Source: a virus
IMG/VR virus record: IMGVR_UViG_3300031857_016370
Coordinates: 1-26,667 of that record
Direction: 5' to 3' (one strand)
Length of the DNA: 26,667 nucleotides
Below the pieces are notes generated by a model, which worked only from the letters and a program-made list of their open reading frames with translations, did no database searches and was not told where the DNA came from. This document shows positions 3,043 to 20,939 of the stretch, piece by piece. How positions within the stretch are numbered: the stretch's first letter is position 1; each line of letters opens with the position of its first letter. A program made the position numbers and the translations under genes.

Positions 3043-3894
3043 TTAATATCCTGTAGATTCAGTTTCCCAAACTTCTTCTTTAAGTTTTTTATTTAACTCA
3101 TAAGCTCTAGCCAAACGAGTCATTCCTATTCCACCACCAAAACGTGGGAAGAAATTATGAGATAAAAACTCTCCCAATTCTTTTTCTACTCTTTCTTTAC
3201 CGAATAATTCAAACAACTTAGCAGAATAACCACCATTTTCTATCGTGTAGAAGTTATTTCTCATTTCCTCAACATTGGAACTTCTTTCTGCGGAACCTAT
3301 AGTTTCCTGACCAAACAATATTACATCAACTTTGTTGAATATTTTGTTTTTACCTTCTCTCATATTCCAAAATGGATTTGTTCTGTACGGGAAGTTCTGT
3401 AGAGATACTACTGAACCTTTCTCTTCCCACATTCTTGTTTCGTGTTCGTTTTCTAAAATTTGAACTCCACCATATTCTTCACAAACATCGTCATAATTCA
3501 CTTCAACCGGGTTATTAAACCCAAGATAATCTAAAAGTTCCGATTCAAGTTTTAACATTTCTTTCATTCCACCTTTTGATTCAAATTCAAACATTGGGAA
3601 AATCATTTCGTGACGACCTGGAATTGGGTCTTTCTCTTGTCTATAAGACGTTGAAATACAATATACACCGTCCCATTCAGGATTCTTAAGAAGTTCGTAT
3701 TCTAACCACATTTGACCCGTCTGTGGTAGTGGCCAAACCTCCCCCTGATAATTAAATGTTGTTATTGAGTGTGGATTTTCACACGCTGCCAAGATTGACA
3801 ATCTTGATTGGGTTGGAACTTCTTTAAATCCTTTGTTTTGGAAGAATGTTCTCATCTTTTGAACTAACTCGTTGTAAGTTTCTGTGTTTTTCAT
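3043..3894 (-). CDS. Class II aaRS-like protein, probable asparagine synthetase A (archaeal type)
   Basis: A 283-residue catalytic core of the AspRS/AsnRS subclass of class II synthetases without an anticodon-binding domain. Motif 2 is seen as SYRQEKD then GRHEMIFPMFEFES, and motif 3 as FPRFGGGIGMTRLARAY with the ATP-binding arginine. Stand-alone cores of this size are known as archaeal-type asparagine synthetase (aspartate + ammonia + ATP to asparagine), which evolved from AspRS; this is the best guess. The alternative is a truncated AsnRS/AspRS paralogue that aminoacylates something else. It is transcribed alone on the minus strand, convergent with the signalling operon and divergent from dnaK. 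Its leader contains a terminator-like hairpin 40 nt upstream of the start. Family confident, exact reaction less so. Confidence 0.8.
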   Translation of the reverse strand: MKNTETYNELVQKMRTFFQNKGFKEVPTQSRLSILAACENPHSITTFNYQGEVWPLPQTGQMWLEYELLKNPEWDGVYCISTSYRQEKDPIPGRHEMIFPMFEFESKGGMKEMLKLESELLDYLGFNNPVEVNYDDVCEEYGGVQILENEHETRMWEEKGSVVSLQNFPYRTNPFWNMREGKNKIFNKVDVILFGQETIGSAERSSNVEEMRNNFYTIENGGYSAKLFELFGKERVEKELGEFLSHNFFPRFGGGIGMTRLARAYELNKKLKEEVWETESTGY

Positions 3895-7014: not shown

Positions 7015-7362
7015 ATGAAGTATATTATTACAGAGTCACAATCTAAATTGCTCCAACCGACAATTCAATCATTAATTGATTCTGAACTTGATTCATTACG
7101 TACAGAATCTGAAGACTGGGGGATGGAAGATATGGATGCAATTCATGAAGTGCAATCTGTAGACAAAATAGTTATTGATAGAATTGTAACAGTATCCAAA
7201 ATAAAAGTTTACGTTAACATTTATACTAATTCAAACAGAAACGATTTTGACAATTTAAGGGCTGAGATTCAATATAGAATAGAAGATTGGCTTCCAAACA
7301 TTGAATTGTATATTGAAAACATAATAGACGACAGGGAATTTGGACCTGGAATTGATTGGTAA
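7015..7362 (+). CDS. Hypothetical protein with ITE leader motif
   Basis: A 115-residue protein of unknown family. It starts MKYIITESQSKLL, with the I-T-E tripeptide ending at residue 7. That is the form of the T4 prohead-protease site (I/L-x-E), and similar leaders recur in this block. The rest is acidic with predicted alpha/beta content and no membrane segment; it ends GPGIDW. A TATTTATT motif lies immediately upstream. Possibly a head-packaged protein, by inference from the leader only. Confidence 0.65.
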   Translation: MKYIITESQSKLLQPTIQSLIDSELDSLRTESEDWGMEDMDAIHEVQSVDKIVIDRIVTVSKIKVYVNIYTNSNRNDFDNLRAEIQYRIEDWLPNIELYIENIIDDREFGPGIDW

Positions 7363-7373
7363 TTAAATTATAT

Positions 7374-7796
7374 ATGAAAAATATTAATGTATTGTTTTTT
7401 ATCTTACTATTCACATCTTGTGCTAGTTTTGAAAATCTAACTGATGACAGACATAGACCTGAAGATGATGAAATGTATTGGAATAGAACTGAAGAGTTTT
7501 GGGTAACACACCACGAACCAAAATCAAGACCAGAATCGTCTGAAGATTATTATGGTAACAGACCAGTTTTACCTCCAACTTATTACAACAACTATCCTGA
7601 CTATAACTACTATAATAGAAACAACAACTATTACCCAACGTATAACTATCAACAGACGACATTACCGTTACCACCACCTCCACCACAACACAACAACCCT
7701 TCACCAACTATTAACACACCTAAACCAAATGTAACTCATTATAAAAGAACTAATGAACCACAAAGAGGTAATGGTAAACCAGGTGTTAGAAGATAA
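7374..7796 (+). CDS. Lipoprotein with Asn/Tyr/Pro-rich low-complexity region
   Basis: 140 residues from the ATG at 7374. An ATG 18 nt upstream would put extra charged residues before the signal and overlaps the previous gene, so it is rejected. The signal peptide MKNINVLFFILLFTSC ends in a lipobox with the lipidated Cys16. The mature part is hydrophilic, with Asn/Tyr-rich stretches (YYNNYPDYNYYNRNNNYY), a five-proline run and a basic tail. It would be attached to a host membrane as a lipoprotein, perhaps blocking superinfection or aiding release; that is speculation. It is followed directly by a terminator. Confidence 0.75.
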   Translation: MKNINVLFFILLFTSCASFENLTDDRHRPEDDEMYWNRTEEFWVTHHEPKSRPESSEDYYGNRPVLPPTYYNNYPDYNYYNRNNNYYPTYNYQQTTLPLPPPPPQHNNPSPTINTPKPNVTHYKRTNEPQRGNGKPGVRR

Positions 7797-7800
7797 AAAA

Positions 7801-7820
7801 AACCCCATTTGGGGTTTTTT
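7801..7820. terminator. Bidirectional terminator
   Basis: AACCCC ATTT GGGGTT stem-loop with six T after it and an A-run before it, between convergent genes ending at 7796 (plus) and 7819 (minus). Confidence 0.85.
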
Positions 7821-8130
7821 AATTTATTTCAGGTTGGTCTTCATCAGTTGTTGGTAAATTCTCTTCTTTCTTTTCTTTTTGAATTTGATTAATTATATAT
7901 CCTGATACTGCAAATTCAACACCAGTCCACATTATTAAATCAGTTATTGACATAGCTGAATGTTTTTCCAATAGGAAAAAAATCATACCCCATTGGGCAA
8001 TAATAAAAGCAACACCTGATTCAATTCTTTTTTTTGAGAAAAATGAAGGTTTACTTGAATACATTTTACCTAATTCAGAAATAACCCATTTAATATTTTC
8101 CCACCCAAAGAAAAATTTCTTGTTTTCCAT
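7819..8130 (-). CDS. Two-span membrane protein, holin-like in size
   Basis: A 103-residue protein with two hydrophobic segments (about 38-56, SGVAFIIAQWGMIFFLLEK, and 61-82, ITDLIMWTGVEFAVSGYII) joined by a short loop and followed by a charged, acidic tail. The pattern KKRIESGVAF before the first span recalls small phage membrane proteins with holin topology, but no endolysin is adjacent, so a holin role is unproven. It lies 18 nt downstream of the small basic gene at 8149-8277 and is probably in the same minus-strand transcript. Confidence 0.65.
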   Translation of the reverse strand: MENKKFFFGWENIKWVISELGKMYSSKPSFFSKKRIESGVAFIIAQWGMIFFLLEKHSAMSITDLIMWTGVEFAVSGYIINQIQKEKKEENLPTTDEDQPEIN

Positions 8131-8148
8131 AATTTTAATTTTTTTGGT

Positions 8149-8277
8149 TTATCTACCTTGACCTTTGTAGTTTTTTGGTTTTTGTTCTTTCGGTCCGTAT
8201 TTTTTCTTTGATACGCCTTCTCTTCTTTTTCCGAAAGTTTCTTTTACCCCGTTAGTTGAAAGTTTTCCTTTTGCCAT
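8149..8277 (-). CDS. Small basic protein
   Basis: A 42-residue, strongly basic ORF (about 14 Lys/Arg) starting MAKGKLSTNGVKETFGKRR and ending NYKGQGR. Size and charge suggest nucleic-acid binding or a structural decoration peptide. It sits first in a two-gene minus-strand transcript with the holin-like gene, and a TATTTATA motif lies 33 nt upstream of the start. No family recognised with confidence. Confidence 0.6.
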   Translation of the reverse strand: MAKGKLSTNGVKETFGKRREGVSKKKYGPKEQKPKNYKGQGR

Positions 8278-8310
8278 TTTAACTATTTACTTTTTAAGTT
8301 GGTTTATTAT

Positions 8311-8318
8311 TATAAATA
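8311..8318 (-). promoter_or_regulatory. TATTTATA motif (minus strand) before 8277 gene
   Basis: Reads TATTTATA on the coding (minus) strand, between the 8903-8373 gene terminator and the start at 8277. A member of the repeated putative promoter motif. Confidence 0.4.
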
Positions 8319-8334
8319 GTTTTTAAAATAAAAA

Positions 8335-8355
8335 AAGGGACATCAGTCCCTTTTT
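8335..8355. terminator. Bidirectional terminator
   Basis: GGGAC ATCA GTCCC, extended by an A-run on one side and a T-run on the other. On the minus strand it ends the 8903-8373 gene. Confidence 0.8.
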
Positions 8356-8372
8356 CAAATTTGTTAGAATTA

Positions 8373-8903
8373 TTATTTTCCTTTAACTAATTCCATACAT
8401 CTTTTCAAGTATTCTTTAGCTCTTGGTGATGGTGTAAATTCATCATCTTTAGTTTGTAATGATAATACTTTTTCAATGTCTTTAACTAACTCAGTACCAT
8501 GTTCATTTTCCTTATAAAGTTCAATTACTTTATCCATCGCTTTATTACATTGACCTGAAGTTTCATCAAAATAATTTTTATTTCTGAAATTGTTTAAATT
8601 TTGTAACATTTCGTAAGACAAATGTTCACCACCATCTGTAACGTCTTTAAATAATCTTAGGTTATTTAAAATACCTAATGTATCCACTAAAGAGTTAACA
8701 CCATTTTTTCTTTTTGTGATACTTGGAGTATATTCCATAAAATTTTCAGCTTCTCCAGTAAGTTCTGTTAATGGCAAAGAATTAGTAGTTAAACATCTTG
8801 GTTTCTTTTCTACGATTTCACTTTTTTCTGACATTTCTTGTTCTGAAATGTATTTTTTAAGTGTATTACGAATAATATCGGAGTTAATACTTCTTTTTTT
8901 CAT
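8373..8903 (-). CDS. Hypothetical protein with ISE leader motif
   Basis: A 176-residue hydrophilic protein of unknown family. The N-terminus (MKKRSINSDIIRNTLKKYISEQ) is a basic amphipathic helix ending in I-S-E at residues 19-21, matching the (I/L)-x-E leader of other proteins in this block. A second possible site is LPLTE near residue 47. The rest is mostly helical with a few cysteines. It has its own TATTTATA motif upstream and a terminator downstream, so it is monocistronic. Possibly a packaged head protein. Confidence 0.65.
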   Translation of the reverse strand: MKKRSINSDIIRNTLKKYISEQEMSEKSEIVEKKPRCLTTNSLPLTELTGEAENFMEYTPSITKRKNGVNSLVDTLGILNNLRLFKDVTDGGEHLSYEMLQNLNNFRNKNYFDETSGQCNKAMDKVIELYKENEHGTELVKDIEKVLSLQTKDDEFTPSPRAKEYLKRCMELVKGK

Positions 8904-8921
8904 AAAATGACTATTTTTCTT

Positions 8922-8929
8922 TATAAATA
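8922..8929 (-). promoter_or_regulatory. TATTTATA motif (minus strand) before 8903 gene
   Basis: TATTTATA on the coding strand 18 nt upstream of the start at 8903. With the plus-strand copy at 8963-8970 it forms a divergent pair in the 120-nt gap. Confidence 0.45.
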
Positions 8930-8962
8930 CTTATAGATGTTAAATTATTCAGTATTTCAAAT

Positions 8963-8970
8963 ATTTATAA
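8963..8970 (+). promoter_or_regulatory. TATTTATA motif before the 9024 operon
   Basis: TATTTATA on the plus strand in the divergent intergenic gap, 53 nt before the ATG at 9024. Confidence 0.4.
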
Positions 8971-9023
8971 AATGATAATTCCATTTGAATGAATCATAAA
9001 TAGTAAATCCGTTAATATGGAAG

Positions 9024-9242
9024 ATGGAGATAGTACACAGAACTTGGAAAAAAATATTTTTAGAAAATATTTCCGTAAAACTTTTAATGTTAGGAATGTT
9101 CTTCAATCCACTTGGGTTCGATGCTGTTCAGTATTGGCTTATTTCACTAACAGGGAGTTTGTGGTACGCAAATCTAACTTTGTATTTTATTTCGGGTTTT
9201 TTCTTTGGGTTATCTTTTTTATTCAAAAAATATTCTAAATGA
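9024..9242 (+). CDS. Small two-span membrane protein
   Basis: A 72-residue protein with two hydrophobic segments: residues 20-40 (LLMLGMFFNPLGFDAVQYWL) and 44-66 (ending YFISGFFFGLSFLF), with a Lys-rich C-terminus. Two long overlapping frames exist here. This one is chosen because it forms a regular membrane hairpin and its stop overlaps the PPK2 start as ATGA; the frame from 9017 has no such coupling. The first 19 residues are less regular and the true start may be a later Met. Function unknown; co-expressed with PPK2. Confidence 0.6.
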   Translation: MEIVHRTWKKIFLENISVKLLMLGMFFNPLGFDAVQYWLISLTGSLWYANLTLYFISGFFFGLSFLFKKYSK

Positions 9243-10306
9243 GAAATTTAAATAGACACTTATTAAGTGAAGAAAAGACAAAATCAGAATCACATATTAA
9301 ACGTATTGTGGACATTCTTAGATATAGTGATGTATACAGTGCTCAATTACAAAAAGATTTAAATCAGGTAATTGATTACTCAAAAAACCAAATTGTTGAT
9401 TTCAATTTGTTAGAAAGAGGTATAATGAAAGTCCTTAAAATGAAAGGGGATAAGAGTAAAAATATCCTTGAATTTTTTAAAAAATTATTAAAGTCACTTA
9501 AAAAACGAGAAAAGAATATTATTTTACAGGAACCTGAAAAAGATGATTTACCACAGTTAGAACCACAAGAACCTTCAGTAATTCCAAAGAAAGTTTATAG
9601 AGAAGAACTTTATTATTTACAAGTTGAGTTATTAAAATTACAAGAATGGTTAAATCAAACAGGTAAAACTGTGATTATTGTTTTTGAAGGTAGGGACTCA
9701 GCGGGTAAAGGTTCAACAATTAAAAAATTTGTTGAATATATGAACCCAAGATTTTATAATATAATTGCTTTAGGTATACCATCACCCGAAGAAAGAAAAA
9801 ATTGGTGGGATAGATATAGAAGTCAAATACAATCTGGTAAAGTTAATTTATTCGATAGAAGTTGGTATAACAGAGGATTAATAGAACCTGTTATGGGTTA
9901 TGGTTCGGCTGAAGAATATGAGGATTTTATGGATAATGTTGAAGATTTTGAACAGGGATTAGTTAAAGACGGTGATTACCTTTTCAAACTGTGGTTTTCA
10001 ATAGATAAAGTAACTCAAGCTAAACGATTTGAGATGAGACAACAATCTCCTTTAAAATATTGGAAATATTCACCTAATGATGAAAAGATGCAAGATTTGT
10101 GGGATAGATTTACTGAATTTAAAGAAAAACTATTTGATAAGACATCAACAGTTAATCATCCTTGGGTGATTATTGATTCAAACGATAAAAGAATTTCAGG
10201 TTTAAATGCGATTAGATATGTTTTACAAAACATACCATATAAAAATAAAAATGAAGAAATTTTAGATAAAAGCTTTCCTGAAGCATTAACTGTATTAAAA
10301 CCGTAA
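9239..10306 (+). CDS. ppk2: Polyphosphate kinase 2 family protein with N-terminal extension
   Basis: A 355-residue protein. Residues 118-345 are a PPK2 domain, which moves phosphate between polyphosphate and nucleotides. Visible are the Walker A loop FEGRDSAGKGST (149-160), the Walker B-like VNLFDRSWYNRG (202-213, Asp206), the lid arginines around 183-195, and the C-terminal HPWVIIDSNDK. The first 115 residues are not part of PPK2: a leader MRNLNRHLLSEE with L-S-E at 9-11, a helical region, and a Pro/Glu-rich linker. The leader matches the putative prohead-protease motif of neighbouring proteins, so the enzyme may be packaged in the head. Start fixed by the ATGA overlap with the preceding gene. 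PPK2 is known in bacteria and archaea and is unusual in phages. Family confident; substrate preference (NDP or NMP) not readable. Confidence 0.92.
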   Translation: MRNLNRHLLSEEKTKSESHIKRIVDILRYSDVYSAQLQKDLNQVIDYSKNQIVDFNLLERGIMKVLKMKGDKSKNILEFFKKLLKSLKKREKNIILQEPEKDDLPQLEPQEPSVIPKKVYREELYYLQVELLKLQEWLNQTGKTVIIVFEGRDSAGKGSTIKKFVEYMNPRFYNIIALGIPSPEERKNWWDRYRSQIQSGKVNLFDRSWYNRGLIEPVMGYGSAEEYEDFMDNVEDFEQGLVKDGDYLFKLWFSIDKVTQAKRFEMRQQSPLKYWKYSPNDEKMQDLWDRFTEFKEKLFDKTSTVNHPWVIIDSNDKRISGLNAIRYVLQNIPYKNKNEEILDKSFPEALTVLKP

Positions 10307-10310
10307 ACAG

Positions 10311-10871
10311 ATGAAAAACAATAAAATAATATCAGAAGGTTTAAAATATCATTTGGACTATGAAATTCCATTAACCGAAAATGTTTACCGACCTCTTTCT
10401 GAAAACTTTTTTAAATTAATTAACGAAGTAAGAGAATTATATAAAAACGGTATGATTGACTTAAACGAAGATGAAATAGATATTGTTGAATCTGACATGG
10501 GAGAAACTGTTACCTTATCTGATGGAAGTGTTATTTATCTTGATGTACCATTTATTGAAGAAAATTTAAATGAAGCGGAATACAAAGGAAGAAAAGTACA
10601 ATTAGGAAAACCTATGAGAAACTCAGGTGGTGGAAAAAAATATGTTGTTTATGTTAAAAACCCATCAACAGGTAATGTCAAAAAAATCTCATTTGGTGAT
10701 GTTCATGGTGGTTTAACTGCTAAAGTATCTAATCCAAAGGCTCGTAAAGCATTTGCTTCACGTCATCAATGTGCTAAGAAAAAAGACAGAACAACTGCCG
10801 GTTATTGGGCGTGTAGAGTTAATAGATTTGGACACCTTTGGGGTGGTAAAACATATCCAGGATATTGGTAA
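10311..10871 (+). CDS. Phage protein with basic ASRHQC-type C-terminal domain
   Basis: A 186-residue protein four bases downstream of PPK2. The N-terminus MKNNKIISEGLKYHL carries I-S-E at 7-9, and a second L-T-E is at 21-23. Residues 25-90 are acidic. The C-terminal 90 residues are basic: SGGGKKYVVYVKNP, then KARKAFASRHQCAKKKDRTT and GYWACR. This last region matches a C-terminal domain seen repeatedly in large-phage proteins (R-x-FxxRHxCxxK...A-x-YWxC), whose cysteine and histidine may bind metal. The role is not established; a virion role is plausible from the leader motif. Confidence 0.75.
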   Translation: MKNNKIISEGLKYHLDYEIPLTENVYRPLSENFFKLINEVRELYKNGMIDLNEDEIDIVESDMGETVTLSDGSVIYLDVPFIEENLNEAEYKGRKVQLGKPMRNSGGGKKYVVYVKNPSTGNVKKISFGDVHGGLTAKVSNPKARKAFASRHQCAKKKDRTTAGYWACRVNRFGHLWGGKTYPGYW

Positions 10872-10874
10872 TTT

Positions 10875-11150
10875 ATGAGTGAAGATACTAAACCATATGA
10901 GGATATCATTTTAACTTCAAATGAAAAAGAAAGAACATTTGAAGAAAATGTTTCTGATGGTGAGTTACTTTGGCATCGTGATAGAGAAGATAGGATAATT
11001 GAAGTTCTTGAAGGGGATGATTGGAAACTTCAAATGGATAATGAATTACCTGTAATTTTAGAAAAAAGTAAAAAATACTTTATACCAAAAGGTGTGTATC
11101 ACAGAGCTATTAAAGGAAAAGATAAACTAAAAATTAAGATTCAGTTTTAG
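10875..11150 (+). CDS. Cupin-fold small protein
   Basis: A 91-residue single-domain protein with a beta-rich pattern: LLWHRDREDRIIEVLEGDDW, then KLQMDNELPVIL, YFIPKGVYHRAIKG and LKIKIQF. His-x-Asp-Arg-Glu-Asp and the later Tyr-His fit a small cupin (RmlC-like) with possible metal binding. Similar stand-alone cupins occur in large marine and Bacteroidota phages without assigned function. It lies four bases after the preceding gene and overlaps the 3' end of the convergent thioesterase gene by 17 nt. Confidence 0.65.
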   Translation: MSEDTKPYEDIILTSNEKERTFEENVSDGELLWHRDREDRIIEVLEGDDWKLQMDNELPVILEKSKKYFIPKGVYHRAIKGKDKLKIKIQF

Positions 11151-11550
11151 AATTTTTCTCAATTAAACTTGTGATTCTTCTTCTAGCCTTTTCACCTAAA
11201 GGAATTGGATTACCGTCCTCATCAATACTTACAAATTTAATATTTGTTCTTAAAACTATAACTTGATTACCTGTGTAAACATTATGTGCTCTTGCTTCCA
11301 TATATAATGTTACAGATGTTATTCCTAATTTTGATGGGTACCCGTAAATCTTTAAAAGTTGACCTTCCTTTGCAGGTTTTTCAAAATAACATTTATCAAT
11401 AGATACGGTTACCATTCTTGGGGTATCACAAATTTGCATTGAGTATCCTGCAGCTGCGGCATCAGCCCAAGCTAATAATTTTCCTCCAAATAAGTTTCCG
11501 TGAAATCCTAAATCAGATTTTTTTACGGGATGTGTGTTTAATAGTTCCAT
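11134..11550 (-). CDS. Hot-dog fold acyl-CoA thioesterase
   Basis: A 138-residue protein with the hot-dog signature of the YciA/Acot type. The first helix region reads GFHGNLFGGKLLAWADAAAA, where the Asn and Asp are the catalytic-site positions of this family, followed by strands MVTVSIDKCYFEKPAKEGQ and VTLYMEARAHNVYTGNQ. It would hydrolyse acyl-CoA thioesters in the cytoplasm. Length is normal for a single hot-dog domain. It is a lone minus-strand gene between plus-strand phage genes and overlaps the cupin gene tail-to-tail. Lipid-metabolism enzymes are unusual in phages; it may alter host membrane lipids or clear acyl-CoA. Family confident, substrate unknown. Confidence 0.85.
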   Translation of the reverse strand: MELLNTHPVKKSDLGFHGNLFGGKLLAWADAAAAGYSMQICDTPRMVTVSIDKCYFEKPAKEGQLLKIYGYPSKLGITSVTLYMEARAHNVYTGNQVIVLRTNIKFVSIDEDGNPIPLGEKARRRITSLIEKNSKTES

Positions 11551-11589
11551 AAATGGAATTATAATTAAAAATAAAGTAATTTGAAATAG

Positions 11590-11597
11590 TATTTATT
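11590..11597 (+). promoter_or_regulatory. TATTTATT motif before the 11601 start
   Basis: TATTTATT ends three bases before the ATG at 11601, the same placement as at 7003-7010. Confidence 0.4.
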
Positions 11598-11600
11598 AAT

Positions 11601-12608
11601 ATGAATTATGAAAAATTAAATCATGTCTTCAACGAACAAGTTTTTGAATACAATGGTCCTGTTTTTACAATAGAAGATAAGAATAAGATTAGTTTTAAAT
11701 TTAATATTGTTGGAACTAAAGATTTGATACATATTGGTGATTGGGTTAAGTTTTATTTAGTTGATGTTGAAATTGTTAAAATAAATAAACCTTTGTTAAC
11801 TTATTTATATCTTAGCGGTCCCTCTTCTATTGAAAATTTAGATATCTCAAAAATTAAAAGTGGGAATATAAAACCTAATGATTTAGATTTTGATAAAATT
11901 TCGGAAAAATTTACAAAAACCAATCTTATTACATGGGGATTGGAAACCGAAATTGAATCTTTATTAAAATTTGCCAATATTGAACATGTAAAAATAAATA
12001 AAATAAATTTTAATTTACCTAATAAAAATTTTTTAACAGAACAAAGAATGAGTCGTAAGGCAACTAGAGATGTTGTTAGAGATATTGTTAATATTTTGAA
12101 AACTAACAAAAAGGGAAAGTTTATTTTACCTGGTGATGAAGATTTTTATACTTTTAAAAATTATCCTTTAGAATTTATAGTTGAGTTAGATGTACGTCAC
12201 GATAAAAAAATGGAAGGATTTAAGATTAACGGTAGTTATGTTCCTGAAGAAGAGATTGTTGAGTTATTAATCATATGTAATCCTAAAACATTAAAACGTG
12301 ATTTTTACAATATCATTGGTGAGTTAAATGAAATACTCACTCACGAATTAGAACATGGTAGACAGGAGTATAGGGGTGATTTGGATGATGTTAGTTTAGA
12401 CACCGAGAATAATTTAGAATATTATTTACAACCTCACGAAATACAAGCTCAAGTTAAAGGTTTTAAAAGATTATCAAAACTAAAGAAAGTACCATTTATA
12501 GATGTTGTTAAACATTGGTTTAACACACATAAAGATATTCATGGTTTAACAAGTGATGAGGAAAATATTTTAATAGATACTTTAGTTGACTACAATTCAA
12601 AAAATTAA
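11601..12608 (+). CDS. Zincin-like metalloprotease with internal LTE site
   Basis: A 335-residue two-part protein. Residues 1-140 form an uncharacterised beta-rich domain. A linker with F-L-T-E-Q-R (L-T-E at 145-147) is followed by a protease-like domain containing the zinc-binding motif THELEHGRQ (HExxH at 248-252). A possible third ligand is in PHEIQAQ near 279-283. HExxH followed by a His/Glu helix is the pattern of gluzincin-like phage proteases. The L-T-E between domains resembles the maturation sites of neighbouring proteins, so the protease might be released by cleavage. It converges with the next minus gene with a 4-nt overlap. Target unknown. Confidence 0.7.
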   Translation: MNYEKLNHVFNEQVFEYNGPVFTIEDKNKISFKFNIVGTKDLIHIGDWVKFYLVDVEIVKINKPLLTYLYLSGPSSIENLDISKIKSGNIKPNDLDFDKISEKFTKTNLITWGLETEIESLLKFANIEHVKINKINFNLPNKNFLTEQRMSRKATRDVVRDIVNILKTNKKGKFILPGDEDFYTFKNYPLEFIVELDVRHDKKMEGFKINGSYVPEEEIVELLIICNPKTLKRDFYNIIGELNEILTHELEHGRQEYRGDLDDVSLDTENNLEYYLQPHEIQAQVKGFKRLSKLKKVPFIDVVKHWFNTHKDIHGLTSDEENILIDTLVDYNSKN

Positions 12609-13234
12609 TTTTTGAATCTTTCTAACATTTTATTAACTAACTCTCTAATAATCAAACTAGAAACTGTTAAAACTCCAAAAGAAGCTAATCTGGTTGATAT
12701 TTGTGATATATCAGAATCGGTGAATGTCCCGTTATGTCCCAATTCAAACAATTGAGGTATTAAAGGAACAATAAAAGTATAACTCATTATGTTGATTATT
12801 TTATGAGTTGTTAAATTCAAAGATTTAATAAATGTTAAAAATACATTTTTAAGTTCTTCACCTTTTTTTAACGTGGTTTTAAAAATGTCTTCTAAACCTT
12901 TTTCTTTAATTTTTTCTAAAATTGTTTTGATTAATTTTTTATTATCAAAATAAATTACGGCAATTACACCTGTTAATAACAAAGACATTTCAACGTCACT
13001 AATTTCAGGAGAAACTCCCATAACAAAATCATTAAGTGGACCAACTAAACCGCCAATCGTCGCTCCCCAAGTGATAGCAAATTCTAAATTAACACCTATT
13101 TGTTCTGACGTTTTTTTTAAAATATCTTTCACAAATTCGTAATTTTCTTTCACTATCTCACCTAATTCTGAACCAATTGATTCATTAATTATTAATTTTT
13201 TTTGTTCTTCAGTAATAATAAAGTTAGAATTCAT
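12605..13234 (-). CDS. Multi-span membrane protein with ITE leader
   Basis: A 209-residue protein. The N-terminus MNSNFIITEEQKKLIINESI has I-T-E at 7-9 and I-N-E at 16-18. Hydrophobic segments follow at about 52-70, 82-96, 150-166 and 186-200, separated by amphipathic helices with many Lys/Glu. No family recognised. A membrane-active protein with a cleavable leader could be injected with the DNA, as internal proteins of some phages are; this is inference. It shares the palindromic TATTTATATAAATA with the divergent gene at 13278. Confidence 0.65.
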   Translation of the reverse strand: MNSNFIITEEQKKLIINESIGSELGEIVKENYEFVKDILKKTSEQIGVNLEFAITWGATIGGLVGPLNDFVMGVSPEISDVEMSLLLTGVIAVIYFDNKKLIKTILEKIKEKGLEDIFKTTLKKGEELKNVFLTFIKSLNLTTHKIINIMSYTFIVPLIPQLFELGHNGTFTDSDISQISTRLASFGVLTVSSLIIRELVNKMLERFKN

Positions 13235-13247
13235 ATTTATATAAATA
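13234..13247. promoter_or_regulatory. Palindromic TATTTATATAAATA between divergent genes
   Basis: A perfect 14-nt palindrome presents TATTTATA on both strands, directly at the start of the minus gene (start 13234) and 30 nt before the plus gene (13278). It fits a shared bidirectional version of the repeated motif. Confidence 0.5.
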
Positions 13248-13277
13248 TTAGTTAATATTTAATTATAAAGGCATAAA

Positions 13278-13868
13278 ATGATAAATCCTGAACTTAAAGT
13301 TGGTGACAGAGTAATTCTTCTACATATGGAAGATGAGTATAGTAATGTCCCACCAACGACTGAAGGTATTGTTACGAATGTTAATGACGTAATGGGTGAG
13401 ACAATTTATTCAGTTAAATGGGATAATGGTTCATCTTTAAATCTAATTTCTACAACTGATTTGTGGAAAAAAAAGAATGAAGATTTGAAAGAATCTTTTA
13501 ATAATGCCGAGTGGCAAAGAACTGAAGAGTTAATTAAAAATATTGATGTTTTTAAGTATTTTAACAGTAAATTTTTAAGAGGTTACTTGAAAAAACTAAG
13601 AGAATGTAGTTTGGTAAATATGGCTGGTGCTGCACCATACTTATATATGGGTAGGGATAGAATTAAAGCTGACATTTTCCTTAAAAATCATGAAAATGAA
13701 TATTGTGACGAAGTTTTAGAAATGGCAAATCAAGCACAATCAGAGATGATTTCAGGTGTGATAAAATTTTTAGAAAAAAACGACAAGGAAATTAATTTAG
13801 AAAATATTAATAGATTTCTACATAGATTATCCAGTAAAGTTTTATCTGTATATATTTTAACTTTCTAA
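13278..13868 (+). CDS. DUF4314-like SH3-fold protein
   Basis: A 196-residue protein. Residues 5-65 match the small SH3-like DUF4314 type: KVGDRVILLHMEDEYSNVPP, TEGIVTNVNDVMGE and YSVKWDNGSSLNLI. The remaining 130 residues are helical with no recognised family. Such domains are common as short phage and plasmid proteins of unknown role. It ends with a 12-nt tail-to-tail overlap with the minus-strand gene 13857-14153. Confidence 0.7.
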   Translation: MINPELKVGDRVILLHMEDEYSNVPPTTEGIVTNVNDVMGETIYSVKWDNGSSLNLISTTDLWKKKNEDLKESFNNAEWQRTEELIKNIDVFKYFNSKFLRGYLKKLRECSLVNMAGAAPYLYMGRDRIKADIFLKNHENEYCDEVLEMANQAQSEMISGVIKFLEKNDKEINLENINRFLHRLSSKVLSVYILTF

Positions 13869-14153
13869 AAATTCAAAACTCCAAGAATTATTTGTAAAAA
13901 CAGGTTTGATGGGTATATCTAAAAATACTGCGTTTTGTTCACCTGCGTAAAGACCAAGTATGTTATAATCATAAAATTCTTCAGATTCTTCCATAGTCAT
14001 TGAATCTCTTTCACAGAGTATTGATAGAATCTTTGGTTTTGAATATAAGATTCTTCTACCATTACCAAATTCTTCAACAATACCAATTATTGCCGATTCT
14101 AAACCATCTAAAAGGACTGCCCCTTCGGCATACTCATCAATATCAACTTTCAT
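13857..14153 (-). CDS. Small conserved phage-type hypothetical
   Basis: A 98-residue acidic protein with a recognisable phage-type pattern: AVLLDGLESAIIGIVEEFGN, then RILYSKPKILSIL, DSMTMEESEEFYDYNILG and YAGEQNAVF. Proteins of this form are frequent in T4-like and other large phages, without a known function. It is convergent and overlapping with the DUF4314-like gene, and divergent from 14213. Confidence 0.7.
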   Translation of the reverse strand: MKVDIDEYAEGAVLLDGLESAIIGIVEEFGNGRRILYSKPKILSILCERDSMTMEESEEFYDYNILGLYAGEQNAVFLDIPIKPVFTNNSWSFEFLES

Positions 14154-14190
14154 ATTATAATTGTAATTAAATTATTCTTCTTAATCAACA

Positions 14191-14198
14191 TATTTATA
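14191..14198 (+). promoter_or_regulatory. TATTTATA motif before the 14213 start
   Basis: TATTTATA 14 nt upstream of the ATG at 14213. Confidence 0.45.
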
Positions 14199-14212
14199 TT
14201 TAAAACAATATT

Positions 14213-14773
14213 ATGAACGCATATTTTACAAGTATAACACCCGAAGAGAGAGCAAATATATTAGATAAACACAAAACAGTTTATGATGGATTTGCTACAA
14301 ACTATGCACAACCAAATCAACAACCTTTATATGTCCAAGATTTGGCAAACGATAAAGGTGGAATCACTGTGAGTAACAAAAATAATGTTACCACATATAA
14401 GAACATGCATATTAATGAAGACGTTTACAATGGGACAGCTTATGATGCTGAAGAGACATTTGAGTCTTTAGATATGATTGGTGATGGTTCTGATGATTTA
14501 GAATATGGAACATTTGGTCAGTCTGAATTAGAAGATTGCCAGTTTTGTAATGGTTTAGGTAGAGATGAATTTAATGATGAAGAATGTGAATGGTGCGAGG
14601 GAACAGGATTTAAAGATACTAGTTCACATCACTACGACATTGAAGTTGAACCTGAATTTAGTGATATTGATAATTTAGATTTAGAAGATGAGATGGATGA
14701 TGAGATGATTGGTCCATTGCAAGAACAAGTGAATAAGTCACTTGATATGTTTAGAAGATTTAATAGAATTTAA
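14213..14773 (+). CDS. Acidic protein with a DnaJ-like CxxC zinc motif
   Basis: A 186-residue acidic protein. The N-terminal ITPEERANILDKHKTVYDGF is a helical motif found at the start of several phage proteins. Residues about 104-122 hold CQFCNGLGRDEF and CEWCEGTG, two CxxCxGxG-like knuckles spaced as one zinc site of the DnaJ cysteine-rich domain; only one pair is present, so it is half a DnaJ zinc domain. The rest is very rich in Asp/Glu. No J-domain is visible, so it is not a DnaJ. Virion or regulatory role unknown. Confidence 0.65.
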   Translation: MNAYFTSITPEERANILDKHKTVYDGFATNYAQPNQQPLYVQDLANDKGGITVSNKNNVTTYKNMHINEDVYNGTAYDAEETFESLDMIGDGSDDLEYGTFGQSELEDCQFCNGLGRDEFNDEECEWCEGTGFKDTSSHHYDIEVEPEFSDIDNLDLEDEMDDEMIGPLQEQVNKSLDMFRRFNRI

Positions 14774-14821
14774 TCTGTATTTTTTAAAATTTTGTGATAT
14801 TTCTTAACTAAAGATAAGATA

Positions 14822-15145
14822 ATGGAAATTAACGAATTGGTTTCATTTTATATAAATGAATCTTCCCAAACATTAGAATTCACATTTAGAACTATTGAAG
14901 ATTCTGAAGATGAAATTAGAACAGGGTCTATTGAATTTGACGAAATTAAAAATTTTGGTTACGATTTTTTAGATGATATTACAAATTCTTTCAAAACATT
15001 AGAAGATGATGGTCTTTTTGATGATGACTATGAGGATTTTGGTGACTTATTTGATGATGAGTTTGATGAACAAGAGTTCATTTCTTTTCTAAATGAATAT
15101 TATTTGGTTAATCCAAAAAAACTACCAAAGTCAGAACTTTTTTAA
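14822..15145 (+). CDS. Strongly acidic hypothetical protein
   Basis: A 107-residue protein with a very acidic second half (a run of Asp/Glu with Phe, e.g. LFDDDYEDFGDLFDDEFDEQ). Strong acidity suggests a DNA mimic or a binder of basic proteins, but no family is recognised. It lies 48 nt after the preceding gene and probably in the same transcript; codon use matches neighbours. Confidence 0.6.
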   Translation: MEINELVSFYINESSQTLEFTFRTIEDSEDEIRTGSIEFDEIKNFGYDFLDDITNSFKTLEDDGLFDDDYEDFGDLFDDEFDEQEFISFLNEYYLVNPKKLPKSELF

Positions 15146-15169
15146 ATGATGATTTTTTAAATAAAAGGC

Positions 15170-15177
15170 TATTTATA
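15170..15177 (+). promoter_or_regulatory. TATTTATA motif before the 15182 start
   Basis: TATTTATA ends four bases before the ATG at 15182. Confidence 0.45.
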
Positions 15178-15181
15178 ATGT

Positions 15182-15427
15182 ATGAGAAACGATGTTGATT
15201 ACATCATCAATATTTTAAAAAAATATTCGACAAATGATAATGGAACACCTGAAGAATTAGGTGAAGATGAAGCGGCGGCTTCAGGTTCAGGAGCGAAACC
15301 CGCTTACCCAACAGTTACTAAATGGGAGTCAGGAGTGTCCAGAACAGGTCCGGCAAATCAAATAGGGTTAACTAAATGGAGAGATATTGTTAAAATTAAT
15401 AGAGGGAAGGCTAATACTTTGTTATGA
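15182..15427 (+). CDS. Small phage-type protein ending GKANTLL
   Basis: An 81-residue protein. Residues 1-15 are helical (MRNDVDYIINILKKY), the middle is acidic then Ala/Gly/Ser-rich (EDEAAASGSGAK), and the C-terminal half, AYPTVTKWESGVSRTGPANQ followed by KWRDIVKINRGKANTLL, is a conserved block I recognise from large-phage hypothetical proteins. The role is not known. Short length and a flexible middle suggest a small structural or packaged protein. Confidence 0.65.
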   Translation: MRNDVDYIINILKKYSTNDNGTPEELGEDEAAASGSGAKPAYPTVTKWESGVSRTGPANQIGLTKWRDIVKINRGKANTLL

Positions 15428-15432
15428 TTTAA

Positions 15433-15440
15433 TATTTATA
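15433..15440 (+). promoter_or_regulatory. TATTTATA motif before the 15448 start
   Basis: TATTTATA seven bases upstream of the ATG at 15448, immediately after the stop of the preceding gene. Confidence 0.45.
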
Positions 15441-15447
15441 TGATATT

Positions 15448-16758
15448 ATGAATAAAAATATTTTACAAGAAGAAATAAATAAGAGTAAAGTTTTAATGGG
15501 TTACAACTCTAAAAAAACTTTAACTGAAAATCAAAACCAACTATTAAACTCTAATGGTATTGATGTAGTTTTCACCGATTGGTTATCTCCTGATGAAAAA
15601 TTTATCATTTTTTTAGATGAGGTATATGATTTAGAAAATAAAGTTAGATTAGGAAACATTTGGGAAAATTTTGACTTATTTAAGAATTTCATCAGACATT
15701 CATTTGATGTTGCAACTAATGTCCCACAAGTAGTTAAAGAATCTATAAATAATTCTTTGAGTAAGTTAATTTTAACTGAATCTACTCAAGACATGACTAA
15801 ATTAAAACCTTTTGTTAGACAAATGTTATCCGAAGAAGGAACATGGAACCCATTCAACCAAGACTTTTGGAGTATGAAGAATGCAGGTGAATTAGGTACT
15901 GAATTTGCGGATTGGACAGTGAAACAAGCTAAAGATGCATATGAAGGTACAACTGATTTTTTACAGACTTCATGGGAAGGTTTGAAAAAGGCGGGTGTTG
16001 CAATTTCAAAAGGTGAATGGGAAGAATTAATGAACTTAATAGGCAAAGGAGCGTTATATGTTGCAAGAAAATTAAGGGCCGCTTTATATCACCCAATAGG
16101 TATTACAATTGATGCAATTTTAATTGCAACAGGTATTGGTAAAGGTGTACAATGGATTCCTTGGGCTATTGTTGTTGCACTTGATGCTTATGAAGTTATT
16201 ACAGGTGATTATGAAGACCCTGATTTACCAACATGGTTAAGGGTACTATTTTATGGTCTTGATATATTAGGTTTAGTTTTAGCCGGAGCCGCCGCAAAGG
16301 CAGGAAGAGTAGGTCTTGAAACAGCAACTGCGGGAGTAAAAACTGAAGCGGAAATGGCGGAAGTTTTAGCTAAAAACCCTGAACTTAGAGGGACTGTTGA
16401 AACAATGGCTAAAAGTGCTGAAAAGACACCAGGTCTATTAAGACAAGGTGTTGATTATTTGAAAAATACTTTCCCTGCGGGAGCTAAATTTATTGAATTT
16501 ACATTAGGAAGTATCGAAAAATTTATAACTTTTATTGTTGATGGGATAAAAAGTATTTTACCATCAGGTAAACAAATTGTAAAAGGTACAGTTGCTGGTG
16601 GTAAAAGTTTAGGGACTTATTTTGGTATTGAAAAATTAATCCATTCTTACCAAGAAAAACAAGCAGAAAAACAAGAAAAAGAATTAGAACAAAACGTAGA
16701 TAAACTAACAGGTGGTCAAGCCGACTACTCTGATGATATACCAGCACCAATACGATGA
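15448..16758 (+). CDS. Large membrane protein with LTE leader, probable packaged protein
   Basis: A 436-residue protein. The leader ILQEEINKSKVLMGY then SKKTLTENQ (L-T-E at 25-27) is almost the same as the leader of the next gene. Two further sites, LILTES and QMLSEEG (about 109-130), precede an amphipathic region. Hydrophobic segments lie at about 210-250 (IGITIDAILIATGIGKGVQW, then IPWAIVVALDAYEVITG) and 264-288 (VLFYGLDILGLVLAGAAAKA). The C-terminus is Lys/Glu/Gln-rich. The central region resembles pore-forming or polymorphic-toxin pre-domains (helical, Ala/Gly-rich, paired spans), but no catalytic domain is seen. I infer an internal head protein that could insert in the host membrane during infection. 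Family not recognised. The stop overlaps the next start by 4 nt (ATGA). Confidence 0.65.
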   Translation: MNKNILQEEINKSKVLMGYNSKKTLTENQNQLLNSNGIDVVFTDWLSPDEKFIIFLDEVYDLENKVRLGNIWENFDLFKNFIRHSFDVATNVPQVVKESINNSLSKLILTESTQDMTKLKPFVRQMLSEEGTWNPFNQDFWSMKNAGELGTEFADWTVKQAKDAYEGTTDFLQTSWEGLKKAGVAISKGEWEELMNLIGKGALYVARKLRAALYHPIGITIDAILIATGIGKGVQWIPWAIVVALDAYEVITGDYEDPDLPTWLRVLFYGLDILGLVLAGAAAKAGRVGLETATAGVKTEAEMAEVLAKNPELRGTVETMAKSAEKTPGLLRQGVDYLKNTFPAGAKFIEFTLGSIEKFITFIVDGIKSILPSGKQIVKGTVAGGKSLGTYFGIEKLIHSYQEKQAEKQEKELEQNVDKLTGGQADYSDDIPAPIR

Positions 16759-18119
16759 AACAGAATTTATTAGAAGAAATAAATAAAATGAAAATGATGT
16801 TCAGTTATGACAATAAAAAAACTCTAACTGAAAACATAACTATTGAAGAACAAAGAGGGGCTTTAAGAGATTTGGTAAAACTTGATAAAGAATTTTTAAA
16901 CGCTAATAGAGCTGAACTTGAAAACATTTTATCAAAATCAGTTGGAGGTTTAAAAGATATTAACGGTAATAGTCTTAAAACTGCCGATGAATTATTAACC
17001 GCAATAAAAACTGATAAATTAGCACCTGCGGCATTAGGAAAAGTTAATAGAGGTCTTTTGAGAAGTACTGGTTCTAGTAGAGAAGTTAAAGAAGCGGTGG
17101 CTAAAGATATTGGTGAATTCATGTATACTAGGAAAGCCGATTATGAAGGTGCAACTCGTGAAACAATGAAAGACGCTTTAATTAAACAAAATGGTTATTC
17201 TCCTGAAGAAGCTGAAATGATTCTTAAAGCATATGAAAATAAAGGTGGATTTATCAAAGACGGTAAAGTTTTAGATGACGCTAAAGAGCTTGAAAGACAA
17301 AAAGAACTTGACAAGTTAAAAGAAAAAAATAAAAAGGCTGAGTTAGATAGACAAAAAGAACTTGACAAGTTAAAAGAAAAAAACAAAAAGGCTCAGTACG
17401 AAAAAGAAATTGAAAAATATAAAGTACCTGAAGGGGAATCCGGTAGATGGAAAAAATTTAAATCAAGATTAAAAAAAGTTGGATTTGTAAAAGGATTACT
17501 TATTTTAGGAGGTCTCGGATTGGCAGCATACTATCTATATGATTGGTTTATGAATGATGATGAAAATGTAACATTTCCTGACTGTTTAAAAAATAAAGTT
17601 AGTAAAGATGACTGGGATGCAACTATTAAAGACGGTAAATCTTTAATAGTTAAGTTTACAGGTAATGATAAAATAGATTCAATCGGAGGTGGTAAGTTCT
17701 ACGAAGGTGGAAACTTTAAGTCAGGTGATGAATCACAACAAGGTACATGGAGTGAAGAAGACGGAAATGTTATAATAAAAATAGGTTCAGATAAATATGT
17801 ATTACCTTGTGAAGGAGCTCCAAATCCTGACGATGATATGACTGAAGAAGAAGAATTATTAGAAGATTCAGACGTTACTTTTGGACCATGTGATAATTTC
17901 CCATTGTCTAAAGGTTGTACCGGTGAATATGTAAGAAACATTAGAGAATGTTTAGGTTTAAAAGGAAATCATTTTACAAGTCACTTAGAAAGAAAATTAA
18001 TATCTCAAGGTTATGACATTATTGTAACTGTAGATATTTATAATATGATAATGAAAAAATGTGGTAAACAAGGATATTATGATATGAAGTTTAACACATA
18101 CTCAACTCGTGAAATTTAA
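16755..18119 (+). CDS. Membrane protein with LTE leader and C-terminal peptidoglycan-binding-like domain
   Basis: A 454-residue modular protein. The leader LLEEINKMKMMFSYDNKKTL-TEN carries L-T-E at 24-26, paralogous to the leader of the upstream gene. A helical region (30-180) follows. Residues about 177-215 form a Lys/Glu helix made of two 18-residue copies (54-nt tandem DNA repeat). A transmembrane segment is at about 240-258 (GLLILGGLGLAAYYLYDWFM). A small beta domain follows, and residues about 378-445 resemble a peptidoglycan-binding fold (PLSKGCTGEYVRNIRECLGL, LERKLISQGYD, VDIYNMIMKKCG). The combination suggests a virion protein that contacts the cell wall or spans the envelope. No lytic active site is visible. 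Start set by the ATGA overlap with the previous gene. Confidence 0.65.
   Translation: MKQNLLEEINKMKMMFSYDNKKTLTENITIEEQRGALRDLVKLDKEFLNANRAELENILSKSVGGLKDINGNSLKTADELLTAIKTDKLAPAALGKVNRGLLRSTGSSREVKEAVAKDIGEFMYTRKADYEGATRETMKDALIKQNGYSPEEAEMILKAYENKGGFIKDGKVLDDAKELERQKELDKLKEKNKKAELDRQKELDKLKEKNKKAQYEKEIEKYKVPEGESGRWKKFKSRLKKVGFVKGLLILGGLGLAAYYLYDWFMNDDENVTFPDCLKNKVSKDDWDATIKDGKSLIVKFTGNDKIDSIGGGKFYEGGNFKSGDESQQGTWSEEDGNVIIKIGSDKYVLPCEGAPNPDDDMTEEEELLEDSDVTFGPCDNFPLSKGCTGEYVRNIRECLGLKGNHFTSHLERKLISQGYDIIVTVDIYNMIMKKCGKQGYYDMKFNTYSTREI
17295..17393 (+). repeat. 54-nt tandem duplication inside a coding region
   Basis: Two nearly identical in-frame copies with a 54-nt period (AGACAAAAAGAACTTGACAA begins each, at 17295 and 17349) encode RQKELDKLKEKNKKA twice, extending a charged helix by 18 residues. 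Few differences suggest a recent duplication. Confidence 0.85.
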
Positions 18120-18123
18120 AATT

Positions 18124-19263
18124 ATGAAAAAATACATTACAGAAGAACTAGACGCTGACATAAGAGCAGTTTTAGATAAATTCAAAGATTCACCATCTGA
18201 TATTCAATTGGCAATAGAATTTGCTAAAGAATGTTTCCCTAATTTAGATTTGAATTCAATCGGACCTGCGGGATATCCGAATGACAAAAGTAAGAATTGT
18301 ATGAAGTTTAAATCTACAAATCCTGCGAATTCTGCAAATCCTATTGGATATATTTGTGATTCAAATAATGGACCGTTAGTTTTTTTAACACAAGATGCTG
18401 ATAACAAAAAATCTCAGGGTCTTGAGTATATCCCAGCTAAAAAAACTACTTGGACTTGTTCATCTCTTTCTGAATATAAAAACGCATATTCTAGTCCTGA
18501 ATTACAAAAAATATACGATGCGTTAAAGACAGTTCTTAAACCTGAAAATATAAAAGATTATACTGAGTTAACTAAAACACAAGCATTACAACAAGGTTTT
18601 TATTTACAATCTTTAGATGATATTTATACCGCTAATAAACAAGCTTTAGACAGTATTGCTAAAGATGTTAAATGGCAATTTAAAATTTCTAATAAACCTT
18701 TTTACTTTTGGAGAAAAGGAACAACGGTTGATTTGAAACAAGATATATCAGCATCAATTGTTTCAGATATGGAAACTATTGGAGCAACACCCGGTAAATG
18801 CTCAACTCTTGAAAAAGAAAGAGGAACTTGTTTTGATATTGATTTAAATCAAATGTATCCTGGTGAATTTCAAGGACCAAAATATTACCACTACAACGCA
18901 ACAAACGCTGTGGAGGCTAGAACAAAACTTAAATCAATTAGAAAAGAAACTGCGGATTCATACGGTAAAAGAGATTGTAAAAAGGTATTTAGAGAATATG
19001 TTGATTTAATTAGAACATGTGGTCAAGGACAATCTCAAAATGAAATTAATATGTTTAAACCGGCGGTTCAAGCTTGTATTAACACACAAAGAGATAAGTT
19101 TCCTGATGAGGTTAAAATTATTAATAACCCAATCAAAGGTAAGCATACGACAATGAGTTGTACTAAAGATTTTAGATTAACTCAAACTGAATCACAATCA
19201 AGATTGAAAAATATTATTAGAGAAAACTTAATTAAATTAAGCATCCGTAAAGGATTAATCTAA
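18124..19263 (+). CDS. Cysteine-containing hypothetical protein with ITE leader
   Basis: 379 residues from the ATG at 18124. An in-frame ATG at 18109 overlaps the previous gene, but the 18124 start gives MKKYITEELDADIRAVL, matching the short leaders of the block (I-T-E at 5-7). The protein has many cysteines spread along it (for example CFPNLD, CMKFKS, TWTCSS, GKCSTLEKERGTCF, and RTCGQGQ), so disulfides or metal sites are possible. The C-terminus QTESQSRLKNIIRENLIKLS is a helix with an ESQxRLKxIIRE pattern typical of phage proteins bearing maturation motifs. No enzyme family recognised. Last gene of a three-gene unit; a terminator follows. Confidence 0.65.
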   Translation: MKKYITEELDADIRAVLDKFKDSPSDIQLAIEFAKECFPNLDLNSIGPAGYPNDKSKNCMKFKSTNPANSANPIGYICDSNNGPLVFLTQDADNKKSQGLEYIPAKKTTWTCSSLSEYKNAYSSPELQKIYDALKTVLKPENIKDYTELTKTQALQQGFYLQSLDDIYTANKQALDSIAKDVKWQFKISNKPFYFWRKGTTVDLKQDISASIVSDMETIGATPGKCSTLEKERGTCFDIDLNQMYPGEFQGPKYYHYNATNAVEARTKLKSIRKETADSYGKRDCKKVFREYVDLIRTCGQGQSQNEINMFKPAVQACINTQRDKFPDEVKIINNPIKGKHTTMSCTKDFRLTQTESQSRLKNIIRENLIKLSIRKGLI

Positions 19264-20315: not shown

Positions 20316-20939
20316 ATGAAAACACTTATCAAATACGCTTTAATCATCTGTGGTTTAATCTTCATTGTAAACAGAGGTTCGGATTTTTTAGGTGGATTAA
20401 CTGACATCAATCCCAAAGATGTTAAAGATAAAATTGATGGTTTATTAAGTGCAAACCAAGAAAGTTCATCTGTTGGAAAAATTGGGAGTGGTACTATTCA
20501 CATTGTTGGTTTGGGTGAATATAATCAATCAGATTTGGTTAAAGCTAAAAAATACGTTGAGGAGTTCTATGGTTTTAGTTGTGTTGTTGATGGTGGTGTA
20601 CCGACTAAACCCTCAATGTATATTGAGAACTCAATCACTTTGAATGTTACACAGTGTCTTGGTGAACTTAGTGTACCTGGTCAAAAAACAATCTATGTGA
20701 CAAAAGAATCCCTATATTCAAAAGAATGGGGTATGTTGAGAGGTATGACACACATGAGAGGTAATACTGTGGTTGTTAAAGGTGGAGAACACTTACAAGA
20801 AACTGTTATTCACGAACTTGGTCACACTTTAGGATTGGGTCACTGTGATAATAAACAATGTATCATGGCAGTTCATAATGACGCAGAAGATACAGGACAA
20901 TTTTGTTCAAAATGTAAGAATCAATTAAAAAACCAATAA
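20316..20939 (+). CDS. Archaemetzincin-type zinc metalloprotease, membrane-anchored or exported
   Basis: A 207-residue protein. The zinc motif HELGHTLGLGHC (166-177), followed by CIM (182-184) and a CSKC pair (197-200), reproduces the archaemetzincin (M54) signature HExxHxxGxxHC-x4-CxM...CxxC; the spacing from the Met to the last CxxC (12) is shorter than in typical members. The catalytic Glu167 and three zinc His are present. Residues 5-18 are hydrophobic (IKYALIICGLIFIV), a signal anchor that would place the protease outside the cytoplasm. Archaemetzincins are found mostly in archaea, vertebrates and scattered bacteria. It heads a small operon with the next acidic gene, from a TAnnTTTG promoter. 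Substrate unknown. Confidence 0.88.
   Translation: MKTLIKYALIICGLIFIVNRGSDFLGGLTDINPKDVKDKIDGLLSANQESSSVGKIGSGTIHIVGLGEYNQSDLVKAKKYVEEFYGFSCVVDGGVPTKPSMYIENSITLNVTQCLGELSVPGQKTIYVTKESLYSKEWGMLRGMTHMRGNTVVVKGGEHLQETVIHELGHTLGLGHCDNKQCIMAVHNDAEDTGQFCSKCKNQLKNQ

Follow-up and report, generated by a model that had tools for sequence, protein, structure and literature searches.

We have analysed a 26,667-base virus record (IMG/VR IMGVR_UViG_3300031857_016370, positions 1 to 26,667, hereafter the window), a fragment of a large bacterial virus with no further contigs, and within it a set of short N-terminal leaders ending in [LI]xE that are carried by unrelated proteins on the two strands (those of the 8903 and 13234 genes on the minus strand, the others on the plus strand). 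These leaders are probably capsid-targeting propeptides, and the proteins that bear them would be cargo packed in the phage head, trimmed by an S77 prohead protease and delivered with the DNA. What speaks for this is that the tags are shared and modular, that they match the end of the capsid propeptide of the same clade, that the internal junctions are conserved and that relatives have the protease gene. An earlier note on this DNA had read these genes as a packaged and trimmed set, and the comparison with relatives supports that interpretation in outline, on a scale that appears to be larger than had been proposed.

Leaders on unrelated proteins

Every motif named by the earlier note was found at its gene (7015, 8903, the PPK2 gene at 9239, 10311, 11601, 13234, 15448, 16755 and 18124), and the comparison with background that it had suggested gave a clear excess. 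Among the 34 open reading frames (ORFs) of at least 80 amino acids (aa) in the window, 13 had [IL][TSN]E within residues 2-30, whereas shuffling each protein gave 3.6±1.7 (none of 2000 shuffles reached 13) and the rate in protein interiors would give 2.4; the counts are approximate, since ORF calling followed a simple longest-ATG rule. In G018, a contig syntenic with the window, 32 of 117 proteins had the motif in residues 2-12, against 5.2±2.2 shuffled (z 12.4). The idea of a shared (I/L)-(T/S)-E leader stood as regards the motif and fell as regards a single short leader: judging by their sequences, the motif words are the recognisable tail of N-terminal leaders that belong to four or more interchangeable classes. 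As to wording, the [LI]xE end is kept between homologues and the identical words are not. The leaders and internal sites of the window are as follows, with a slash at the predicted cut.

7015 to 7035, plus strand: class D leader MKYIITE/ of the 115-aa protein 7015-7362 (homologues MKYIVTE in G004, MKIIITE in G018).
8841 to 8903, minus strand: leader MKKRSINSDIIRNTLKKYISE/, residues 1-21 of the 176-aa protein 8373-8903, with YISE at residues 18-21.
9239 to 9271, plus strand: leader MRNLNRHLLSE/ of the PPK2 gene 9239-10306, with LLSE at residues 8-11.
10311 to 10379, plus strand: leader of gene 10311, with the sites IISE/G (residue 9; IISE 6-9) and PLTE/N (residue 23; PLTE 20-23).
10563 to 10574, plus strand: internal site NLNE/ just before the phrog_7595 ("HVA1 family") domain (10575-10868).
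12030 to 12041, plus strand: internal site FLTE/, residues 144-147 of gene 11601-12608, between the N-terminal and zincin-like domains.
13181 to 13234, minus strand: leader of gene 12605-13234, with the sites IITE/ (6-9) and IINE/ (15-18); both [IL]xE are kept in most of six homologues.
15448 to 15528, plus strand: class C leader MNKNILQEEINKSKVLMGYNSKKTLTE/ of the 436-aa helical 15448 protein, with TLTE at residues 24-27.
15769 to 15780, plus strand: internal site ILTE/S, residues 108-111 of the 15448 protein; E111 and S112 are invariant in eight homologues.
16755 to 16832, plus strand: class C leader MKQNLLEEINKMKMMFSYDNKKTLTE/ of the 454-aa 16755 protein, with TLTE at residues 23-26.
18124 to 18144, plus strand: class D leader MKKYITE/ of the 379-aa 18124 protein, with YITE at residues 4-7; kept in G004, MRKNILKEN in L003.

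Class A has the form MKKVIRLTESDLxRIVKRVIxE, class B MKKFIITESEKKxILxLYxxITE, class C MKNLxEEIxRMKxMMGLxxE and class D MKIIITE[SEN]Q. Fixed regular expressions for these classes tagged 162 of the 1706 proteins in ten related contigs (G018 31/117, G013 24/158, the window 6/34), where shuffles led us to expect 0.2-2 per contig and an internal-Met control gave 0-1.2%. The figure for the window is a minimum: the expressions are strict, and the 8903 and 16755 proteins do not fit them. One match, a "class D" methylase at 155750 in G010, is probably due to chance. Two contigs picked via PPK2, without reference to the leader, served as holdouts and had 15 of 266 proteins tagged (1.6±1.3 shuffled) and, for G072, 5 of 163 (0.8±0.8 shuffled). 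The same count gave three tagged proteins in T4 and none in two unrelated Bacteroidota phages (crAss001 0/89, phi38:1 0/60; 0/149 together). Nor was any of 69 homologues of the core replication, metabolic, head and tail genes of immuto, a cultured relative, tagged, with ca. 6.6 expected at the pool rate. It could be argued that hydrophobic, Glu-rich N-termini in an AT-rich genome yield such a motif by chance, the more so as it is short and was chosen by a reader after looking. However, the composition-preserving shuffles, the interior controls, the holdouts and the unrelated phages exclude this, and we consider its probability negligible. The leaders appear to be spread through hundreds of relatives of the window virus. 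The short leader peptides gave no match to phage isolates by tblastn even at E 10, probably due to the length of the queries.

The 31 tagged proteins of G018 belong to 27 unrelated mature families, and 170 tagged proteins (from the ten contigs, immuto and two other phage sets) to 121, of which 94 have a single member. Homologous mature proteins carry differing leader classes in five families; for example, the homologues of the 15448 protein in G018, G005, G007 and G012 have a class B leader in place of the class C leader of the window. In the 8903 family [IL]xE is constant at residues 19-21 in six homologues and the remaining leader is variable, being of class A in G010, and the PLTE site of the 10311 protein reads TLSE in immuto, PLSE in G011, PLNE in G009, SLSE in G018 and PLIE in G012. 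The 16755 leader is near-identical to that of 15448, and the mature proteins differ. Two immuto proteins, gp230 and gp083 (L006:25061 and L008:11675), have the same leader, MKKQILSEQF[KR]RMQxLAGIITE/S, in a phage that is in culture. The leaders might also be common by descent, that is, the proteins would be a fast-evolving paralogous family in which only the N-terminus is still recognisable, without a common function, and some tagged genes are indeed adjacent paralogues (G018 84474-86378). This is very improbable, as the 121 mature families include PPK2, lysozyme and cell-wall hydrolase, homologues have different leader classes, and the linker directly after the leader in PPK2 has the motif in a far smaller share of 10-residue windows than the leader (0.20 against 0.82).

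Protease, capsid and domain junctions

We saw neither a capsid nor a portal or terminase gene in the window, and an S77 protease was found neither in this fragment nor in the contigs of L001-L005. The gene order of the window is repeated in G018 and in G004, the latter at about 63-99% protein identity, and partly in G009, G010 and G011. The nearest relative with head genes is G018, with a T4-type S77 protease, portal and terminase. The gp21-like protease that the earlier note had proposed to look for is present there (S77, PF03420, 79.6 bits against a curated cut-off of 27) and in the majority of the large contigs that have these genes, namely in all 8 leader-selected contigs above 120 kb and in 12 of the 13 PPK2-selected contigs above 100 kb, as well as in immuto and Melnitz. 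The 269-kb contig G068 has two S77 matches, at 31291-31773 and 233494-233940. Among its portal, protease and terminase genes G018 has a Ribosomal_S21 gene (L164 3425-3619), located between those for protease and portal and read from the opposite strand. In the passages of PMC9723584 on the bS21 freshwater Bacteroidetes phages, the hallmark of the group is a reverse-strand bS21 gene amid those for terminase, portal and protease, and nothing is said of leaders or packaged cargo. This placement, seen in G018, would tie the clade to the bS21 phages. Because the syntenic G018 has S77, a T4-type portal and terminase and Ribosomal_S21, the window is most likely from a relative of this group, with a T4-type head.

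The propeptide of the major capsid protein ends in the same kind of word, LINE/A in six contigs, IVSE/A in immuto and LINE/S or LINE/A in the two holdouts. In T4 the capsid protein has FLTE/A at residue 65, the end of a 65-residue propeptide (PMC5694885), and the internal proteins have FIAE/A and TITE/A. Between portal and protease lies a core protein of ca. 240 aa with 3-6 copies of the motif in each contig (over seven contigs, 1690 aa hold 29 strict motifs, a density some five times that of the genome), which is what one would expect if a core protein were cut into pieces.

Sites are also found inside the tagged proteins. The last 98 residues of the 10311 protein are the phrog_7595 domain, called HVA1 family in some records, and the position before it is Glu in 64 of 68 well-anchored relatives and part of [LIMV]xE in 62 of the 68, with an entropy of 0.41 bits at P1 and of 2.2 bits at P3, where other positions have 2.9-3.7. 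The complete genomes HTVC008M and C48C1 have both S77 and this junction site. In Kolga, HTVC111P and CRP-901 no S77 was seen and the domain is the whole protein, starting M/AKYQG, M/AKYKG and M/ATYKG (the slash here only follows the first Met); CRP-6, where no S77 was seen either, has the domain with a short N-terminus and no site at that place. Since Kolga, HTVC111P and CRP-901 start the domain with M/A at the same residue, the predicted cut product corresponds to the free-standing form. Along similar lines, the second domain of the 11601 protein has a free-standing homologue in G011 whose N-terminal leader (MSYKKILNE/) aligns with FLTE, and the first domain occurs by itself in G010 and G013. 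A single 649-aa protein of G062 (L417:6125-8074) consists of leader, PPK2 and phage lysozyme and has only three strict motifs, two in the leader and one, LNE/T, in the linker between the enzymes. The simplest reading of such internal sites would be a polyprotein cargo.

We propose that the tagged proteins are made with an N-terminal tag of ca. 7-27 residues, which, by analogy with T4, would bind the prohead core. The S77 protease of the phage would cut after [L/I/M/V]-x-E at the end of the tag and at the internal sites between domains, and the trimmed cargo would stay in the head and be ejected with the DNA, as T4 internal proteins and Alt are. The leaders could instead target or dock the proteins to a destination other than the head, such as a host complex or an intracellular phage compartment, with [LI]xE as part of the tag and not a cut site. 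Modular leaders that swap would suit any address tag, and packaging is something that we infer. Yet a docking tag gives no account of the same word at the end of the capsid propeptide, of its density in the core protein, or of junctions where free-standing forms start, and we regard it as quite unlikely.

Several points weigh against the capsid-targeting reading. T4-type phages generally encode an S77 protease, so that its co-occurrence alone is weak evidence, and for the window, a fragment without head genes, the protease is presumed from relatives. The cultured relative immuto has few leaders (5 of 175 proteins by regular expression, 0.6 shuffled), with the loose motif not significant (z 1.3-1.4), and the holdout G072 holds just five. 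Class D leaders are short, near the minimum for a signal. The residue that follows the cut is variable (E, A, S, D or G in PPK2), to a greater degree than at the T4 capsid and internal protein sites shown above, and the tags resemble the T4 tag MKTYQEFIAE in the cut motif only. Cleavage, packaging, delivery, binding of the tag and any role of PPK2 in the host are all inferred.

PPK2, other candidate cargo and the rest of the window

The PPK2 domain of the window is residues 117-339 of the 9239 product (Pfam PPK2 E 9e-70). From 80 viral relatives, 79 of them with the upstream end, we obtained 53 distinct N-termini, two of which were set aside because the start was probably misplaced. All the remaining 51 have [LIV]xE at residues 5-12 and 50 of the 51 also at 11-27; these leaders are mostly of class C, with that of the window a shortened form. 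They were counted by site, as the strict class C expression undercounts them (14 by regex). Solved PPK2 structures align from about residue 98 onward, which places the leader and most of the linker outside the enzyme.

Pfam domains in other tagged proteins include phage lysozyme, cell-wall hydrolase (Hydrolase_2), PG_binding_1, a TseH-like domain and CarboxypepD_reg, and the first four fit what would be expected of ejected proteins. It is also conceivable that the tagged proteins are packed and trimmed but act in the head, in core assembly or DNA condensation, and not in the host; T4 IPIII, for one, affects head assembly (PMC9026906). We think this unlikely, as PPK2, peptidoglycan hydrolases and metallopeptidase-like cargo would make a poor scaffold, and the cargo varies between phages.

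For the unnamed cargo of the window Pfam gave nothing credible at E up to 5. The predicted structure of the 15448 protein was unusable (pLDDT 39.5), and a PADLOC match of this protein to Cas12a (E 0.0018, 13.9 bits) was taken as noise; that of the 16755 protein was mediocre (63.1), without a PDB match at E 0.001, and a peptidoglycan-binding C-terminus that we had suspected by eye was not confirmed. Tagged proteins of 466-503 aa at L018:1290-2789, L012:2715-4226 and G062 192772-194172 have a FHQDLDGVT motif resembling DHH-type phosphoesterases, and the only one tested, from L018, had no Pfam match at E 0.001.

Besides PPK2, the window has 14 tRNA genes, dnaK and genes for a class II tRNA synthetase-like protein, a thioesterase, HNH and metallopeptidases. 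The synthetase-like protein (3043-3894, 283 aa) has a class II (D, K, N) core and a G010 counterpart 74.5% identical. Consecutive genes at 28-2990, partly common to G018, code for a histidine-kinase ATPase-like protein, a response-regulator-like protein of 143 aa and two small proteins with hydrophobic stretches. A Peptidase M54-like metalloprotease (20316-20939) has a hydrophobic N-terminus and no leader of classes A-D. Inside the tRNA array a gene at 24602-25210 codes for a ThaI-like type II restriction endonuclease (Pfam E 4e-51), of which the other contigs compared have no homologue.

Known targeting systems and the meaning of the leaders

The closest parallel is the capsid-targeting sequence (CTS) of T4 IPI-III and Alt, in which residues within the tag direct the protein to the core, gp21 cuts the tag off, and the internal proteins and Alt are ejected (PMC9026906; PMC5694885). 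As in T4, unrelated proteins share a short propeptide ending in [L/I]xE (here of ca. 7-27 residues), S77 is in the same genome (G018 and the large contigs) together with gp20 and gp23, and the capsid propeptide ends alike (FLTE/A in T4, LINE/A here). In contrast to the four tagged proteins of T4, there are up to about 30 per contig here. Their leaders fall into four or more classes that swap between homologues, sites also occur at internal junctions, and the cargo includes enzymes such as PPK2. Since the cut motif alone is common, the leaders would work like a CTS without being the T4 tag itself. The inner-body and ejection proteins of phiKZ and SPN3US are likewise a large set packaged in the head, trimmed and ejected, with several sites per propeptide; but the phiKZ motif is S/A-x-E, most SPN3US propeptides exceed 100 residues, and these phages belong to another lineage, which has a virion RNA polymerase (PMC5694885; PMC9026906), whereas here P3 is I/L/V/M and leaders have 7-27 residues. 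The Kyanoviridae Melnitz and C48C1 have CTS-like starts (MQGFKTFLSEA, MKKFSEIIEA, MKKFKQYIDE), and C48C1 has LTE/A before its phrog_7595 domain; their tag is short and T4-style, with few tagged proteins in the stretch covered. In the literature searched, where subscription papers were poorly covered, we found neither the leader strings in a phage context nor an account of phage PPK2 as virion cargo. The leader system appears to be a new and much larger variant of T4 capsid targeting.

Many unannotated phage genes would in this way become a testable list of candidate virion-delivered proteins that can be read from the first 30 residues. If the proposal is true, T4 capsid targeting, which concerns a few internal proteins, would be broadened into a general way of loading heads in freshwater phages, the protease sites may serve as markers of domain boundaries, and the leaders would provide natural tags with which proteins could be packed into phage heads. 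With the leader on PPK2 comes the question of energy supply at phage entry. There is, in our estimate, an even chance that in a widespread, uncultured clade of Bacteroidota phages a small set of interchangeable cleavable tags loads ten to thirty different proteins per virion, some of them polyproteins diced by the protease between domains, and among them a near-universal PPK2 that would make nucleotides from host polyphosphate as infection starts.

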